From Chloroflexota bacterium (GTDB lineage: Bacteria > Chloroflexota > Dormibacteria > CF-121): DNA of 37,613 nucleotides. The first letter of the stretch is position 1. Each line of letters opens with the position of its first letter. The notes under the pieces were generated by a model that made no database searches, was not told the DNA's origin, and saw only the letters and a list, made by a program, of their open reading frames with translations. The stretch covers positions 1 through 37,613 of the forward strand of contig VBEE01000048.1 of NCBI GenBank assembly GCA_005881715.1, given 5' to 3'. This document shows, in pieces, positions 1 to 5,635 of the stretch. The translations under genes and the position numbers were made by a program.

Positions 1-1119
1 AGCTCCGACGGGCGCGGCGGGGACAGCGCCGGGATCGACACAGTCAACGGCGGCGCCGACGGGCGCGGCAGGCACGGCACCCGGTTCCACGCAATCCACG
101 GCAGCGCCAACTGGCGCAGCGGGAACGGGACCGGGCTCGACGCAATCGACCGCGACGGCAACCGGAGCGGCTGGGACGGGAGTCGGTTCGCAGGGGTCAA
201 CCGCGGCGCCGACCGGCGCGGCCGGCACGGGCGCGGGTTCGGTAGGCTCGACAGCGGCTCCGACCGGTGCGGCCGGAACGGCTCCGGGCTCAACCCAATC
301 GACGGCAGCGCCAACCGGTGCAGCGGGCACCGCTCCTGGTTCGACGCAATCGACAGCTGTGGCCACCGGCGCGGCCGGGACCGCTCCCGGTTCGCAGGCA
401 TCGACGGCGGCCCCGACCGGCGCGGCCGGCACCGGCCCGGGTTCAATTGGCTCGACGGCAGCACCGACCGGTGCGGCGGGGACGGCTCCTGGTTCGACGC
501 AATCGACGGCGGCCCCAACCGGCGCGGCGGGCACGGCCCCCGGTTCGACGCAATCGACCGCCGTAGCCACCGGTGCGGCCGGCACGGCACCCGGTTCACA
601 GGCGTCCACCGCAGCTCCGACGGGCGCGGCGGGGACAGCGCCGGGATCGACACAGTCAACGGCGGCGCCGACGGGCGCGGCAGGCACGGCACCCGGTTCC
701 ACGCAATCCACGGCAGCGCCAACTGGCGCAGCGGGAACGGGACCGGGCTCGACGCAATCGACCGCGACGGCAACCGGAGCGGCTGGGACGGGAGTCGGTT
801 CGCAGGGGTCAACCGCGGCGCCGACCGGCGCGGCCGGCACGGGCGCGGGTTCGGTAGGCTCGACAGCGGCTCCGACCGGTGCGGCCGGAACGGCTCCGGG
901 CTCAACCCAATCGACGGCAGCGCCAACCGGTGCAGCGGGCACCGCTCCTGGTTCGACGCAATCGACAGCTGTGGCCACCGGCGCGGCCGGGACCGCTCCC
1001 GGTTCGCAGGCATCGACGGCGGCCCCGACCGGCGCGGCCGGCACCGGCCCGGGTTCAATTGGCTCGACGGCAGCACCGACCGGTGCGGCGGGGACGGCTC
1101 CTGGTTCGACGCAATCGAC
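1..1119 (+). repeat. 612-bp higher-order tandem duplication
   Basis: Bases 1-507 are identical to bases 613-1119, read line by line with no mismatch. The period of 612 bp equals twelve 51-bp (17-codon) units. Downstream of 508/1120 the two copies diverge at synonymous and a few other positions. Perfect identity across at least 507 bp, against visible divergence among single 51-bp units, indicates a recent duplication of a 12-unit block. The left end is unknown because the window begins inside it. Confidence 0.9.
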
Positions 1120-2026
1120 AGCGGCGCCAACCGGCGCGGCCGGCACAGCACCAGGCTCGACGCAATCGACAGCGGTGGCGACCGGGGCGGCCGGAACGGC
1201 ACCCGGCTCAACCCAATCGACGGCGGCGCCGACCGGAGCGGCCGGCACCGGCCCTGGATCGGTAGGCTCGACCGCGGCGCCGACAGGCGCGGCGGGAACG
1301 GCACCCGGTTCAACCCAGTCGACGGCGGCCCCGACTGGAGCCGCAGGCACTGCCCCCGGCTCGACCCAATCGACGGCCGTCGCCACGGGCGCAGCCGGAA
1401 CCGCACCCGGATCGACGCAGTCGACAGCCCCAGCCAGCGGCGGTGCTGGAACCGGACCTGGATCGGTAGGCTCGACCGCGGCGCCAACCGGGGCAGCGGG
1501 GACTGCGCCCGGCTCGACCCAGTCGACCGCCGCGCCAACCGGTGCTGCGGGGACTGGTTTCGGATCAACGCAATCCACCGCCGCCCCATCCGGGGCAGCC
1601 GGAACGGCCTTCGGGTCCACGCAGTCAACCGCAGCGCCGACCGGCGCAGCCGGAACGGGCGCGGGTTCCGTCGGGTCAACGGCGGCACCGACGGGTGCCG
1701 CAGGAACCGGCTTCGGGTCGGCTCAGTCAACTGCGGCTCCCACAGGGGCGGCCGGGACGGCTCCCGGATCTACGCAGTCGACGGCGGCACCGAGCGGCGG
1801 GGCGGGCACGGCGATCGGCTCGACCGAGTCGTCGGTTGCCACCGGCGCGGCGGGCACGGGCGTCCAGTCGACGCAATCGACGGTAGCCACCGGCGCGGCG
1901 GGTACGGGCGTCGAGTCGACCCAATCGACGGTAGCCACCGGTGCGGCGGGAACCGGCGTCGGATCCGCCGAGTCGACAGTTGCCACCGGCGCGGCAGGGA
2001 CCGGACAGGGCTCAACCCAATCCACC
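2..2026 (+). repeat. Array of 51-bp then 48-bp coding repeats in gene 1
   Basis: Tandem units encode 17 residues (core TGAAGT-x-PGSTQST) up to about 1834. They are followed by four 48-bp units at 1835-1882, 1883-1930, 1931-1978 and 1979-2026 that each lack one residue. Third-codon-position variation is common between units, so the array is mostly old and kept in frame by selection on the protein, except for the recent 612-bp block duplication. Confidence 0.88.
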
Positions 2027-2248
2027 GTGGTGGGCAGCACCGGCAGCGCCGAGACGGTGACCCAGGGCGGCGCAGCTGGCACCGTGACGGAGACGACGAC
2101 GTCGGTGGTCGCCGGCGGACAAGCCGGGCAGCTGGCGAGCACCGGTGGGGCTCCCCTTGCGGCCGAGACCTTGCTGGGAGCGCTTCTCGCCTTGATCGGA
2201 GCGGCCTTGCTGAAACCGAGGGAGGTACTCCGCAGGCTGATTCGCTAA
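2..2248 (+). CDS. LAXTG-anchored repetitive surface protein 1 (5' end outside window)
   Basis: The frame is open from the left edge, so the true start lies outside the window. The visible part is built almost wholly of 17-residue units of the type AAPTGAAGTAPGSTQST, then four 16-residue units (VATGAAGTGVQSTQST type, 1835-2026), then a degenerate Thr/Val/Gly linker. The C-terminus has the order of a sortase substrate: LASTG (2132-2146), a hydrophobic segment rich in Leu/Ala, and a basic tail (KPREVLRRLIR). LAXTG is the motif known for class E sortases of high-GC Gram-positive bacteria, so covalent cell-wall anchoring with the repeats as a stalk is inferred. The next gene is a paralogue with the same ending. 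No sortase gene is in the window. Repeats of Gly, Ala, Thr, Ser and Pro with no aromatic residues suggest a flexible or mucin-like stalk. Reading frame and tail are certain; function is inferred. Confidence 0.85.
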   Translation, partial: APTGAAGTAPGSTQSTAAPTGAAGTAPGSTQSTAAPTGAAGTGPGSTQSTATATGAAGTGVGSQGSTAAPTGAAGTGAGSVGSTAAPTGAAGTAPGSTQSTAAPTGAAGTAPGSTQSTAVATGAAGTAPGSQASTAAPTGAAGTGPGSIGSTAAPTGAAGTAPGSTQSTAAPTGAAGTAPGSTQSTAVATGAAGTAPGSQASTAAPTGAAGTAPGSTQSTAAPTGAAGTAPGSTQSTAAPTGAAGTGPGSTQSTATATGAAGTGVGSQGSTAAPTGAAGTGAGSVGSTAAPTGAAGTAPGSTQSTAAPTGAAGTAPGSTQSTAVATGAAGTAPGSQASTAAPTGAAGTGPGSIGSTAAPTGAAGTAPGSTQSTAAPTGAAGTAPGSTQSTAVATGAAGTAPGSTQSTAAPTGAAGTGPGSVGSTAAPTGAAGTAPGSTQSTAAPTGAAGTAPGSTQSTAVATGAAGTAPGSTQSTAPASGGAGTGPGSVGSTAAPTGAAGTAPGSTQSTAAPTGAAGTGFGSTQSTAAPSGAAGTAFGSTQSTAAPTGAAGTGAGSVGSTAAPTGAAGTGFGSAQSTAAPTGAAGTAPGSTQSTAAPSGGAGTAIGSTESSVATGAAGTGVQSTQSTVATGAAGTGVESTQSTVATGAAGTGVGSAESTVATGAAGTGQGSTQSTVVGSTGSAETVTQGGAAGTVTETTTSVVAGGQAGQLASTGGAPLAAETLLGALLALIGAALLKPREVLRRLIR

Positions 2249-2270
2249 CGCGAACCTATCGAGGTATCAG

Positions 2271-2300
2271 AGCCGCCGGGTTCAAGCGAGCCCGGCGGCT
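2271..2300 (+). terminator. Hairpin terminator of surface protein gene 1
   Basis: A perfect 10-bp stem (AGCCGCCGGG at 2271-2280 with CCCGGCGGCT at 2291-2300) and a 10-base loop begin 23 bases after the stop codon. Only a short pyrimidine stretch follows. A nearly identical stem follows the second surface protein gene at 4211-4240. Confidence 0.75.
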
Positions 2301-2369
2301 TTCGCTGTGTCGGCCGGCTTCCGGCCCAAAAATGGGCCATCTCCGGTATCAGATTTCATATCGTAGCCA

Positions 2370-2399
2370 TTGACAGCAGAGGCAGAGGTAGCTTATCGT
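2370..2399 (+). promoter_or_regulatory. Candidate sigma-70-type promoter for surface protein 2
   Basis: A consensus -35 box TTGACA lies at 2370-2375, with a TATCGT -10-like hexamer (4 of 6 matches) at 2394-2399 after an 18-bp spacer. It lies in the AT-richer gap between the terminator of gene 1 and the start of gene 2, about 95 bases upstream of the chosen start codon. The -35 match is strong and the -10 weak. Confidence 0.45.
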
Positions 2400-2495
2400 C
2401 TAAACCAATAGGATTGTTGACCGCACCGTGATTTACCGTCACACTGCGTGCTGGGAGACCGGGCGACGATAACAACGGGTTTGGAGGGAAATGGA

Positions 2496-4199
2496 GTGAA
2501 CGTCACGTCCTCATATCTGGTAAACCGTGCCGTTTATGACACAGTCGACTCGGAAGTCCTGATTTCGAAATCGACATGGCCTCTAAAGCTATCGGGCTTC
2601 GTGTTTGCGGGCCTCCTGATCGTCGGGCGCTCTGCCAGCTACGGCGACGTCACGTGGACGCCGACGTATCATGCGGCGTCGAGCCCACTGCAAGTCTTAA
2701 TGGTCGGCAAGTCCAGCCCTTCACCGAACACGCCGGTACCGAAGTCGAACGGAAACATCGATCCGTCTAGCGCGGTCAAGCGCAGCGCGGCTGAGGAGGT
2801 GCTCGCCTTCAACGCCGGCGACAGCGGGGAGGGTGGGGACGGCGGTGGACATGATGGCAACCACTCGCACGACGGCAAGAGCGGTGGGGGAGACCAGTCG
2901 AAGAGCCAGCACTCCAATGAGAACGATTCGCATGGCTCAGCTCACACCGGAGCTGCCGGAACGGGGTCAGGCTCCGGGCAGTCGAGCGTAGCGAAGACGG
3001 GTGCCGCTGGTACGGCCGCCGGTTCCGGGCAGTCGAGCGGGGCGAAGACGGGTGCCGCTGGTACGGCCGCCGGTTCCGGGCAGTCGAGCGGGGCGAAGAC
3101 GGGTGCCGCTGGTACGGCCGCCGGGTCCGGGCAGTCAAGCGGGGCGAAGAGCGGTGCGGCGGGAACGGCCGCCGGGTCGGGGCAGTCGAGCGTCGCGAAG
3201 AGCGGTGCGGCGGGAACGGCCGCCGGGTCCGGGCAGTCGAGCGTCGCGAAAAGCGGGGCTGCGGGTACCGCCGCCGGGTCCGGGCAGTCGAGCGTCGCGA
3301 AAAGCGGGGCTGCGGGTACCGCCGCCGGGTCCGGGCAGTCGAGCGTCGCCAAAACCGGTGCTGCGGGTACGGCTGCCGGCTCCGGGCAGTCGAGCGGACA
3401 GCAGACGGGTGGCGCAGGTACGGGCGCCGGTTCCGGCCAGTCGAGTGGGCAGCCGACCGGTGGCGCTGGCACTGGCGCCGGTTCCGGGCAGTCGAGTGGG
3501 CAGCCGACCGGTGGCGCTGGCACTGGCGCCGGCTCCGGGCAGTCGAGTGGGCAGCAAACCGGAGGCGCTGGCACGGGCCAGGGTTCGACCCAATCAACGA
3601 ACGCGACCGGCGCGGCCGGCACGGGCGTCAACTCGACCCAGTCAACGAACGCGACCGGCGCGGCCGGCACGGGCGTCAACTCGACCCAGTCAACGAACGC
3701 GACCGGCGCGGCCGGCACGGGCGTCAACTCGACCCAGTCAACGAACGCGACCGGCGCGGCCGGCACAGGCGTCAATTCGACCCAGTCCACGAACGCGACC
3801 GGCGCGGCCGGCACGGGCGTCAACTCGACCCAGTCGACGAACGCGACCGGCGCGGCCGGCACGGGCGTCAATTCGACCCAGTCGACGAACGCGACCGGCG
3901 CGGCCGGCACGGGCGTCAATTCGACCCAGTCAACGATGGCGGGTGGAACCGTCATCGAGACGACGGGCTCCGTTGGCGCCGGCGGCGCGGGCGGCGGCGG
4001 GACCGTGACGGAAACGACGGGCGAAGTTGGTGCTGGCGCGGCGGGTGCACAGGTCGGGACCCTGGCAACGACCGGGCAAGGCCTGCTGAATCGGGCGGAG
4101 TCGTCGCCGGCGGCGACCGGAGGCATCGCCGGCCTGATCGCTCTGCTGGCAGCCGCATACATCAAGCGGCGCGAGATTCTGTCGAGGTTCCTTCGGTAG
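2496..4199 (+). CDS. LAXTG-anchored repetitive surface protein 2
   Basis: The product has 567 residues. The GTG start at 2496 is chosen because GGAGGG lies at 2483-2488; an upstream in-frame GTG at 2448 has no such site. Residues 1-28 form an unusually long N-region before a hydrophobic signal segment (about 29-45) ending in SAS-like small residues. Residues 110-150 are rich in Gly, His, Asp, Ser and Lys. Twelve 17-residue units (residues 151-354, TGAAGTAAGSGQSSVAK type) follow, then seven identical 16-residue units (NATGAAGTGVNSTQST). A TVxETTG-type linker and LATTG (523-527) lead to a hydrophobic segment near 540-556 and a basic end (KRREILSRFLR). This is a class E sortase (LAXTG) substrate layout. 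It is paralogous to the preceding gene but has its own promoter and terminator. Role is inferred: a wall-anchored stalk or matrix protein. Confidence 0.85.
   Translation: MNVTSSYLVNRAVYDTVDSEVLISKSTWPLKLSGFVFAGLLIVGRSASYGDVTWTPTYHAASSPLQVLMVGKSSPSPNTPVPKSNGNIDPSSAVKRSAAEEVLAFNAGDSGEGGDGGGHDGNHSHDGKSGGGDQSKSQHSNENDSHGSAHTGAAGTGSGSGQSSVAKTGAAGTAAGSGQSSGAKTGAAGTAAGSGQSSGAKTGAAGTAAGSGQSSGAKSGAAGTAAGSGQSSVAKSGAAGTAAGSGQSSVAKSGAAGTAAGSGQSSVAKSGAAGTAAGSGQSSVAKTGAAGTAAGSGQSSGQQTGGAGTGAGSGQSSGQPTGGAGTGAGSGQSSGQPTGGAGTGAGSGQSSGQQTGGAGTGQGSTQSTNATGAAGTGVNSTQSTNATGAAGTGVNSTQSTNATGAAGTGVNSTQSTNATGAAGTGVNSTQSTNATGAAGTGVNSTQSTNATGAAGTGVNSTQSTNATGAAGTGVNSTQSTMAGGTVIETTGSVGAGGAGGGGTVTETTGEVGAGAAGAQVGTLATTGQGLLNRAESSPAATGGIAGLIALLAAAYIKRREILSRFLR
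2946..3557 (+). repeat. Twelve 51-bp coding repeats
   Basis: Twelve tandem 17-codon units spell the order T/S-G-A/G-A-G-T-x-x-G-S-G-Q-S-S-x-x-x. Neighbouring units fall into sub-blocks that share their last three residues (GAK, VAK, GQP/GQQ), which shows local copying. The total of 612 bp equals the higher-order period seen in gene 1; this may be coincidence. Confidence 0.88.
3600..3935 (+). repeat. Seven 48-bp coding repeats, near identical
   Basis: There are seven consecutive 48-bp units beginning AACGCGACCGGCGCGG, at 3600, 3648, 3696, 3744, 3792, 3840 and 3888. They differ only at a few synonymous bases (CAAC/CAAT, TCAACG/TCGACG/TCCACG). The unit encodes 16 residues, NATGAAGTGVNSTQST. This is the most homogeneous array in the window and a likely site of length variation. 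Confidence 0.92.
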
Positions 4200-4210
4200 G
4201 GCGGATGAGA

Positions 4211-4248
4211 AGCCGTCGGGTTGCGAGCAGCCCGGCGGCTTTTTCTTT
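4211..4248 (+). terminator. Rho-independent terminator of surface protein gene 2
   Basis: The stem AGCCGTCGGG (4211-4220) pairs with CCCGGCGGCT (4231-4240) with one G-T pair and a 10-base loop. It is followed by a T-rich tract (TTTTTCTTT). It mirrors the terminator after gene 1 in sequence and position. Confidence 0.85.
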
Positions 4249-4288
4249 GGTCCGGCGTGAAAGTGCGTAAGCTGTTGAAGGGAGGGAC

Positions 4289-5635
4289 ATGAGCGCGACC
4301 TACTCGTCGATCAAGGCGATGTCCGAGCCGGACGTCATGGCGACGTTCCTGGCCGATGAGGTCATCAACCCGGTACTGCCCGCGGTCGCCGTTAAGAAGG
4401 TCAGGGCCACGTCGGGCCGGAGGTTTGAGGCCCCTCGAGTCCTCTGGAATGTTTACGAAGCGGAGCTGGAACTGCCGGGGGGAACGGAGATTCGTCCGCT
4501 GGTCTGGACCAAAGCGTTCTTCAATGATTCGGACTGCGAAGAGTATCGCCACCGTATTCGTTGGATGCTCAAGCATCGAAACGGCAACCCTCTCGATCCG
4601 CAGGGCTTCGTCAAGTTCTTCCCGGAGCACCGGCTCTTTCTTTACTTCTTCCCCACGGATCCGACGTTCCCGGCCCTTCCTACCGTGTTTGATCCGGAGG
4701 CGATGCGTCCGGTTCTGGAGCCTCACTTCAGATACGTCCGGCCGGACGCCAGCATCCGGTCGCTCAGGGCGGTGCGCGTCAAATACTTGCCGGAAATCTC
4801 CTGCATCGTTCGGTATGAGGCCGATATTGGGGAGGAGCGGCCGCTTTCGATCTATGGAAAGGTGCAGCATAGCCGCCGCGGCGCGTTTACCTACGACGTG
4901 ATGAAGGCGCTCTGGGATCTACCGGCTCGTGCCAGTGGCGAAATGCTTTTGTCGGAGCCGCTCGGTTACTATCCCGACCTCGACCTGATGCTGCAGACCG
5001 AGTTGCCAGGTGAAGATGTCAAAGGCGACCGGCACTCAGACCTGTTCATGGCTGAATCGGAAATGGCCGGCAGAACGATCGGGCATATCCACGCTTCCGG
5101 GATCACCGTCGGGACGCCACATACGATCGACGTGGAGATTCAGCGGTTGTACGACCGGCTGGAGCAGTTCAAGATGTCATCGCCCAAGGTCTACCTGGCG
5201 CTGCGCGACCTGCTCAAGCAGATCACTGCCCGCGTCGAACGCGTCCCACCTGAAGCCCCCGTGCCATCGCACGGTGACTACAAATACAACCAATTTCTTT
5301 ATGACGGCAACCAGTTCGGCCTCATCGATGTCGAGTATTTCGTGCAGGCCGAGCCGAGCTTTGATCTGGGCAAGTACTGCGGACACCTCGCGCCCTCAGC
5401 ACCAAAGCACTGGTCCGACACAGAGCGATCCAACGAGGCGCGCCGGGTCTTTCTCGATGCGTACTGTCAGGTTCGGCCGGAGTACCGCGGTGCCCGGTAT
5501 CCGCTTTACGAGTCGCTGTCCCTCGCGACTCGAGCCCTGGTGGTGACCTGGACGCAGGGGCGCAACTGGGACTACACCGCCCAGACGTTGATCTCGCTGT
5601 CGTACGAGCGGTTGAAGACTCGGTGGGGCGAGTAG
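4289..5635 (+). CDS. APH/choline-kinase-fold phosphotransferase family protein
   Basis: The product has 448 residues and the ATG lies after a good GGAGGG site. The C-terminal half has the signature of the aminoglycoside phosphotransferase/homoserine-kinase fold. It contains a catalytic-loop HGDYKYNQ (H328, D330, N334), then LIDVEYF, with D347 in the position of the metal-binding Asp of the DFG-like motif. EPSFDLGKY follows, as in family members that end this motif with a conserved D-L. The N-terminal about 170 residues contain FxKxF-type and VKYLPE segments but no obvious Gly-rich loop. The substrate is unknown. The family includes kinases of small alcohols and sugars as well as antibiotic kinases, and nothing here points to resistance. 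It is a single gene between the surface-protein terminator and tRNA-Glu. Confidence 0.7.
   Translation: MSATYSSIKAMSEPDVMATFLADEVINPVLPAVAVKKVRATSGRRFEAPRVLWNVYEAELELPGGTEIRPLVWTKAFFNDSDCEEYRHRIRWMLKHRNGNPLDPQGFVKFFPEHRLFLYFFPTDPTFPALPTVFDPEAMRPVLEPHFRYVRPDASIRSLRAVRVKYLPEISCIVRYEADIGEERPLSIYGKVQHSRRGAFTYDVMKALWDLPARASGEMLLSEPLGYYPDLDLMLQTELPGEDVKGDRHSDLFMAESEMAGRTIGHIHASGITVGTPHTIDVEIQRLYDRLEQFKMSSPKVYLALRDLLKQITARVERVPPEAPVPSHGDYKYNQFLYDGNQFGLIDVEYFVQAEPSFDLGKYCGHLAPSAPKHWSDTERSNEARRVFLDAYCQVRPEYRGARYPLYESLSLATRALVVTWTQGRNWDYTAQTLISLSYERLKTRWGE

Follow-up and report, generated by a model that had tools for sequence, protein, structure and literature searches.

The window analysed here is a 37,613-nucleotide contig (C57) of the 2.4 Mb draft genome of a Chloroflexota bacterium (genome G000, 125 contigs in total), and its first 4.2 kb raise the question of what two neighbouring genes composed largely of short repeats encode, and which of their parts are conserved. 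The two open reading frames (ORFs) lie on the plus strand; one reaches the contig edge and stops at 2248, and the other stops at 4199. We call the genes LARGE and SMALL, and the pair the cassette. We propose, at a roughly even chance, that the cassette encodes a long-plus-short pair of sortase-anchored, unfolded surface stalks that form a brush.

The first-pass annotation, made from the sequence alone, described two proteins at 2–4199. SMALL is complete, but the first ORF is only the 3′ fragment of LARGE. Searching the genome with the repeat located the 5′ part at G000:C56:23775–28470, where a further array reaches the contig end. It begins with a GTG codon and encodes an N-terminus 42% identical to that of SMALL, followed by 84 repeat units that continue past the contig edge. 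In the sister genome G014, both halves of LARGE are contained in a single frame of 2384 codons on contig C4, followed by a second gene of 600 codons. Since C56 and C57 are collinear with the two sides of this intact gene (blastn), LARGE in G000 is one gene cut by the assembly, and its product has at least 2313 residues (at least 1565 + 748). SMALL probably starts at the GTG at 2496 behind GGAGGGAAA, rather than at 2448.

The repeat unit of both ORFs is TGAAGTxxxSTQSTxxx, with a length of 16 or 17 residues, as the first reading of the sequence had noted. Tandem Repeats Finder reports arrays with periods of 51 and 48 nt at 5–1995, 2973–3547 and 3585–3936, with scores up to 1647. By motif parsing, the first ORF contains 35 units of 17 residues and 4 of 16, and SMALL 12 and 7, respectively. 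The repeats of the G000 proteins contain no cysteines and 0–3 aromatic residues. Differences between units within LARGE amount to 0.64 at third codon positions, compared with 0.11 at first and 0.13 at second positions, and this excess indicates that the units are translated and under selection. A recent duplication with a 612-bp offset, real or an assembly effect, is present near the window start. An open frame of 540 codons with GAAVDCVEPGAVPAAPV repeats runs antisense to the LARGE repeats, on the minus strand of 1–1620; it probably arises from the GC-rich codons of the sense frame.

The repeat unit, on which the first-pass annotation placed its emphasis, is not shared by the whole family. 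It is common to G000, G014 and G012, whereas orthologous pairs of sister species carry other repeats, such as GSNGSAAKGTAAGNETAGTAGSAGSHASAK, between the same conserved ends. LARGE of G001 and G011 is built of 19-residue ETGISDVQGSxGSxGTVGN units and SMALL of G008 and G009 of 30-residue units; the periods of other members are 20, 21/22, 29, 33 and 44, within an overall range of 16–44 residues. Across the family, the repeats consist of 20–37% serine and threonine (serine about 12–19%) and 30–58% glycine and alanine, with 0–4 aromatic residues and 0–2 cysteines, and, apart from the acidic 19-mers, carry little charge. Gene length also differs between species (2384, 1701 and 1595 codons). Between SMALL of G000 and that of G012, the repeats differ at 9% of residues and the N-terminus at 41%. 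Together with the distinct units of other species, this lower divergence of the repeats indicates that a unit is kept within a species cluster and replaced between clusters. The hallmarks of the family are the fixed locus, an extended signal-peptide-like motif, the tail with LAxTG and, in most cases, a TATCAG box; the repeat unit is not one of them.

The C-terminal tails match their original description of a TVxETT linker, an LAxTG motif, a hydrophobic segment and a basic end. In both proteins TVTETT precedes the motif, which is LASTG in LARGE and LATTG in SMALL. A hydrophobic segment and a basic tail follow (LLGALLALIGAALLKPREVLRRLIR and IAGLIALLAAAYIKRREILSRFLR), with the ends KPREVLRRLIR in the LASTG protein and KRREILSRFLR in the LATTG protein. 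L-A-x-T-G is invariant in the tails of 9/9 aligned relatives (alignment A4). Besides the two genes, a search of G000 for tails of this type, which was not a full listing of sorting signals, returned one weak match (E 0.07), located inside a long membrane-protein-like frame. We infer, with good reason, that the pair is anchored at the surface; a sortase could attach both proteins to the cell wall.

The N-termini of 22 family members (alignment A6) share the motif SDxLISKSTWxLKLSGxxFAGLLVIGRSASYG, which continues as GRSASYGNxTW. The hydrophobic core and a small-x-Gly site are conserved among them, and both proteins are predicted to be exported and possibly cleaved at this site. The motif resembles YSIRK/GxxS signal peptides in that it extends before and into a hydrophobic core and is paired with a sorting tail, but its sequence, SDxLISKSTWxLKLSG, differs by inspection from YSIRK-G/S. 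Among the 22 N-termini, no Pfam family covers the conserved stretch and no Pfam signal motif is matched. In an AlphaFold2 (AF2) model of the N-terminus of the LARGE paralogue, a single 28-residue helix runs through the hydrophobic segment and is followed by disorder, with a predicted local distance difference test score (pLDDT) of about 50 in the mature stretch. The model thus offers no evident adhesin head. A linker of SMALL at 2805–2945, rich in histidine, aspartate and serine (GGGHDGNHSHDGKSGGGDQSKSQHSNENDSHGSAH), precedes the repeats and may bind metal; a similar linker is present in G014 and G012.

LARGE and SMALL have separate promoters with a matching TATCAG-N17-TTGACA arrangement. The pattern TATCAG-N(12–24)-TTGACA occurs three times in G000, and two of the occurrences are these promoters. 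TTGACA is positioned 111–149 nt ahead of the start codon in all 22 upstream regions of the family, and in 18 of them a TATCA-type box precedes it by exactly 23 or 22 bp (mostly TATCAG, in one case TGTCAG). The two genes may accordingly be co-regulated by one factor. GGAGGG-type ribosome-binding sites precede nearly all family members as well as the downstream kinase gene. Similar strong hairpins follow both genes, in keeping with the earlier claim of near-identical terminators, but only that after SMALL has a good T-run, and a consensus terminator scan (loop limit 8) reported neither. An Rfam search for riboswitches in the leaders of six loci returned only tRNAs.

Profiles of the N-terminus (A3) and the tail (A4) each match 14 genomes, all from one Chloroflexota family: 11 of the host genus and 3 from other genera. 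The profiles found no relatives in the 92 other genomes of the class, and a search of a 400-genome phylum sample with A6 returned one weak additional match only. Wherever contigs allow, the gene order is LCP, a PD40 protein, gltX (minus strand), a propeller-like ORF (minus strand), LARGE, SMALL and an APH-type kinase, beyond which lie a helicase and a transketolase and, in the genomes scanned, a tRNA gene. This synteny is fixed across four genera, although in G016 only one gene lies between these neighbours. The kinase is directly downstream of the cassette in every family genome with both on one contig, and a functional link between them is possible. In G000, the propeller-like ORF upstream of LARGE (L013, 14630–15586, minus strand) looks frameshifted, with its first half garbled; G014 matches it in two pieces. 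Contig C53 of G000 (L014) carries at 1–1218, on the plus strand, a third TGAAGT/STQST repeat gene that ends in STESTAAARPPA without an LAxTG tail. The 5′ end of this gene lies outside the contig; the gene adjoins a luciferase-like monooxygenase and an infB-like fragment.

No named family had been recognized for the repeat, and our searches agree. LARGE and SMALL have no NCBIfam match; in Pfam, only a sub-threshold PGF-CTERM match was found for SMALL (15.0 bits, cut-off 18.8) and none for LARGE, and SMALL matches no PDB sequence. The family, from soil Chloroflexi, appears to be undescribed, but its general design is familiar. The named relatives are metagenome-assembled genomes (MAGs) labelled 'Chloroflexi bacterium', with sampling depths included in their contig names. 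The Angelo grassland study (PMC6784897) covered the same depth range and reported new Chloroflexi classes, and the MAGs probably come from it.

Features of the cassette and its immediate surroundings in the window
Feature	Position	Strand	Evidence and remarks
LARGE gene, 3′ part	2..2248	+	748 codons plus stop; repeats, TVTETT linker, LASTG tail
LASTG sorting motif of LARGE	2132..2146	+	Sequence; alignment A4; 2147–2245 is the hydrophobic segment and basic end
Hairpin after LARGE	2269..2302	+	−31.1 kcal/mol, z −5.2; terminator-like, weak T-run
TATCAG box	2347..2352	+	23 bp before TTGACA; same box and spacing upstream of LARGE on C56
SMALL promoter TTGACA-18-TATCGT	2370..2399	+	Sole promoter-like match in 2200–4320; shuffles mean 0.1
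Ribosome-binding site GGAGGGAAA of SMALL	2483..2491	+	
SMALL gene, complete	2496..4199	+	567 codons plus stop; start by ribosome-binding site and conservation
Signal-peptide-like N-terminus of SMALL	2496..2645	+	SDxLISKSTWxLKLSG...GRSASYG; alignment A6, 22 members; possible cleavage after Gly50
Conserved mature N-terminal stretch of SMALL	2646..2825	+	DVTWTPTYH...PL.V...EVxxFxxG; alignment A6; predicted disordered
SMALL repeat region	2946..3935	+	17-residue units, then 16-residue units
LATTG sorting motif of SMALL	4062..4076	+	Sequence; alignment A4; 4077–4196 is the spacer, hydrophobic segment and basic end
Hairpin after SMALL	4207..4244	+	−29.0 kcal/mol, z −6.2; terminator-like, good T-run
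APH/choline-kinase-like gene	4289..5635	+	Pfam APH; synteny; immediate downstream neighbour of the cassette

The window contains no sortase gene, in agreement with the first-pass annotation, which had suggested a class E enzyme. Elsewhere in G000, two PF04203 genes over the cut-off, on contigs C118 and C60, retain the catalytic residues. The annotation had named a genome without any sortase as a refutation of its reading, and the two genes show that this does not apply. Among seven sortase-related NCBIfam models, the class E model NF033747 is the best for the C118 protein, but its score of 61 bits is far under the curated cut-off of 160, and the class C model scores nearly as high (53.9). The LAxTG specificity of the C118 sortase is therefore assumed. 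Sortases of classes A, C and E are all among the solved structures nearest to this enzyme in sequence, and its AF2 model is poor (pLDDT 48). Orthologues in the genus and family are 64–92% identical, and His124, Cys185 and Arg194 are invariant in nine of them. Class E sortases are reported to prefer LAxTG through a tyrosine of the β3/β4 loop, Tyr229 of SrtE1 (PMC5148588). The C118 protein has candidate tyrosines in T-H-Y/F and an invariant Tyr103, both before the catalytic histidine. A sortase is present in all 15 genus genomes examined; across the class, 104 of 110 genomes have one. As no other clear LAxTG tails of this type were found and every genus genome examined has a sortase, we infer that the C118 enzyme acts on the cassette tails. 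The sortase of C60 (L002) is divergent, and a PrmC-like methyltransferase ORF lies next to it on this 3.3 kb contig. We found no study of sortase substrates in the literature on this Chloroflexota class.

We hypothesize that each protein is exported through the extended signal peptide, after which the housekeeping sortase C118 would read the LAxTG tail and join the protein to the wall. A Gly/Ala/Ser/Thr-rich, low-charge and presumably unfolded chain would be left standing off the wall. The pair would then form a two-height brush of hydrophilic polymer, possibly O-glycosylated, which may space the cell from soil surfaces and retain water or matrix. A stalk role for the pair, already considered among several in the initial annotation, is reasonable. 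The LCP gene in the locus, encoding a wall-polymer ligase, suggests a wall polymer. Since the sequence is replaced but composition and the pairing of a long with a short protein persist, we prefer a bulk-polymer role to specific binding. Glycosylation of the repeats is possible: about a third of their residues are serine or threonine, and PMT-type glycosyltransferases are present. The serine-rich repeat glycoproteins GspB, PsrP and Fap1 likewise have a sortase tail and very long repeats of low complexity that contain serine and threonine. In the cassette proteins, however, glycine and alanine dominate over serine, and no folded binding region was seen. No accessory Sec or glycosyltransferase genes were found among the Pfam-identified neighbours (LCP, PD40, gltX, APH kinase and DUF4166), although not every neighbour was scanned and SecA2 was not searched genome-wide.

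Several observations weigh against the brush proposal. No sortase gene adjoins the cassette, and the C118 enzyme scores below the class E cut-off. The AF2 model of the N-terminus is of low confidence (mean pLDDT 58). PMT-family matches also occur in 8 of 14 control genomes, which makes them weak support for glycosylation. G003, which is 95% complete, and G010 have no family match and no kinase match, although contigs may be missing; the cassette may thus be dispensable. G007 also lacks a match for the neighbouring kinase.

The proteins could instead be adhesins, in which the repeats form a stalk and the mature stretch NVTWTPTYHxASSPLxV...EVxxFSxG a binding tip. This stretch is the most conserved exposed part of the 22 members, and the variation of length between species recalls the periscope proteins and fibrillar adhesins SasG, Rib and Sgo_0707, in which tandem repeats likewise separate the export signal from the wall anchor and vary in number among relatives. 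However, the stretch is only about 60 residues long, predicted to be disordered and without a Pfam family, and neither protein has a known adhesive or stalk Pfam domain. Periscope stalks are made of folded domains (PMC8201768), whereas the cassette units are low-complexity segments of 16–44 residues and carry no known adhesive head. We regard an adhesin as unlikely. A membrane-to-wall tether, with the N-terminal helix uncleaved in the membrane, the other end in the wall and the repeat as an elastic spacer, would account for the 28-residue helix of the AF2 model and for an invariant arginine directly after it, unusual for a cleavable signal. The hydrophobic core of about 15 residues is nevertheless short for a membrane anchor, and the small-x-Gly site that follows in the aligned members is compatible with signal peptidase, which makes a tether quite unlikely.

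The LAxTG tails and the class E-like sortase score also speak for a chaplin-like coat, and for the SrtE substrates CwpA and CwpB a role in rendering the cell surface hydrophobic has been proposed (PMC13251363). The repeats would then self-assemble into a sheath or spore-like coat altering surface hydrophobicity, as SrtE substrates do in Streptomyces and Actinoplanes. The long chaplins and Actinoplanes CwpA, CwpB and SspA share with the cassette proteins the LAxTG-type tail, hydrophobic segment and basic end; class E sortase anchors the known cases, whereas C118 is only a candidate for this class. Chaplin domains are hydrophobic and usually contain a cysteine pair. Neither cassette protein has a chaplin match in Pfam, and their long low-complexity repeats, rich in glycine, serine, threonine and glutamine, have almost no bulky hydrophobic, aromatic or cysteine residues. 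The N-terminal motif is their own and the host belongs to the Chloroflexota, and we know of no differentiation in these uncultured bacteria. A coat is therefore distinctly improbable. Finally, the arrays could be non-functional satellite DNA, open in frame by chance, as the open antisense frame over the LARGE repeats and the breaking of assemblies at the arrays might suggest. We rejected this reading, which is scarcely credible, on the concentration of unit differences at third positions of the plus frame. Conserved tails, promoters, synteny and N-termini also speak against it, as do the repeat amino acids of G000 and G012, which differ less (0.09) than the N-terminus (0.41).

Returning to the proposed brush, we tentatively hold, at somewhat under an even chance, that the pair is inherited vertically under selection for its export signal, anchor, composition and promoter box, while the repeat is replaced wholesale, and that its signal peptides form a family-specific class. 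The repeat arrays account for the breaking of family assemblies at the cassette locus. The cassette also provides a concrete conserved substrate pair with a predicted target motif, which makes sortase function in these bacteria testable. If the proposal is true, the family would have a polymer brush whose conserved trait is its chemistry and not its sequence. The cassette is also a clear natural example of a surface protein, probably disordered, that keeps its composition and architecture but not its sequence.

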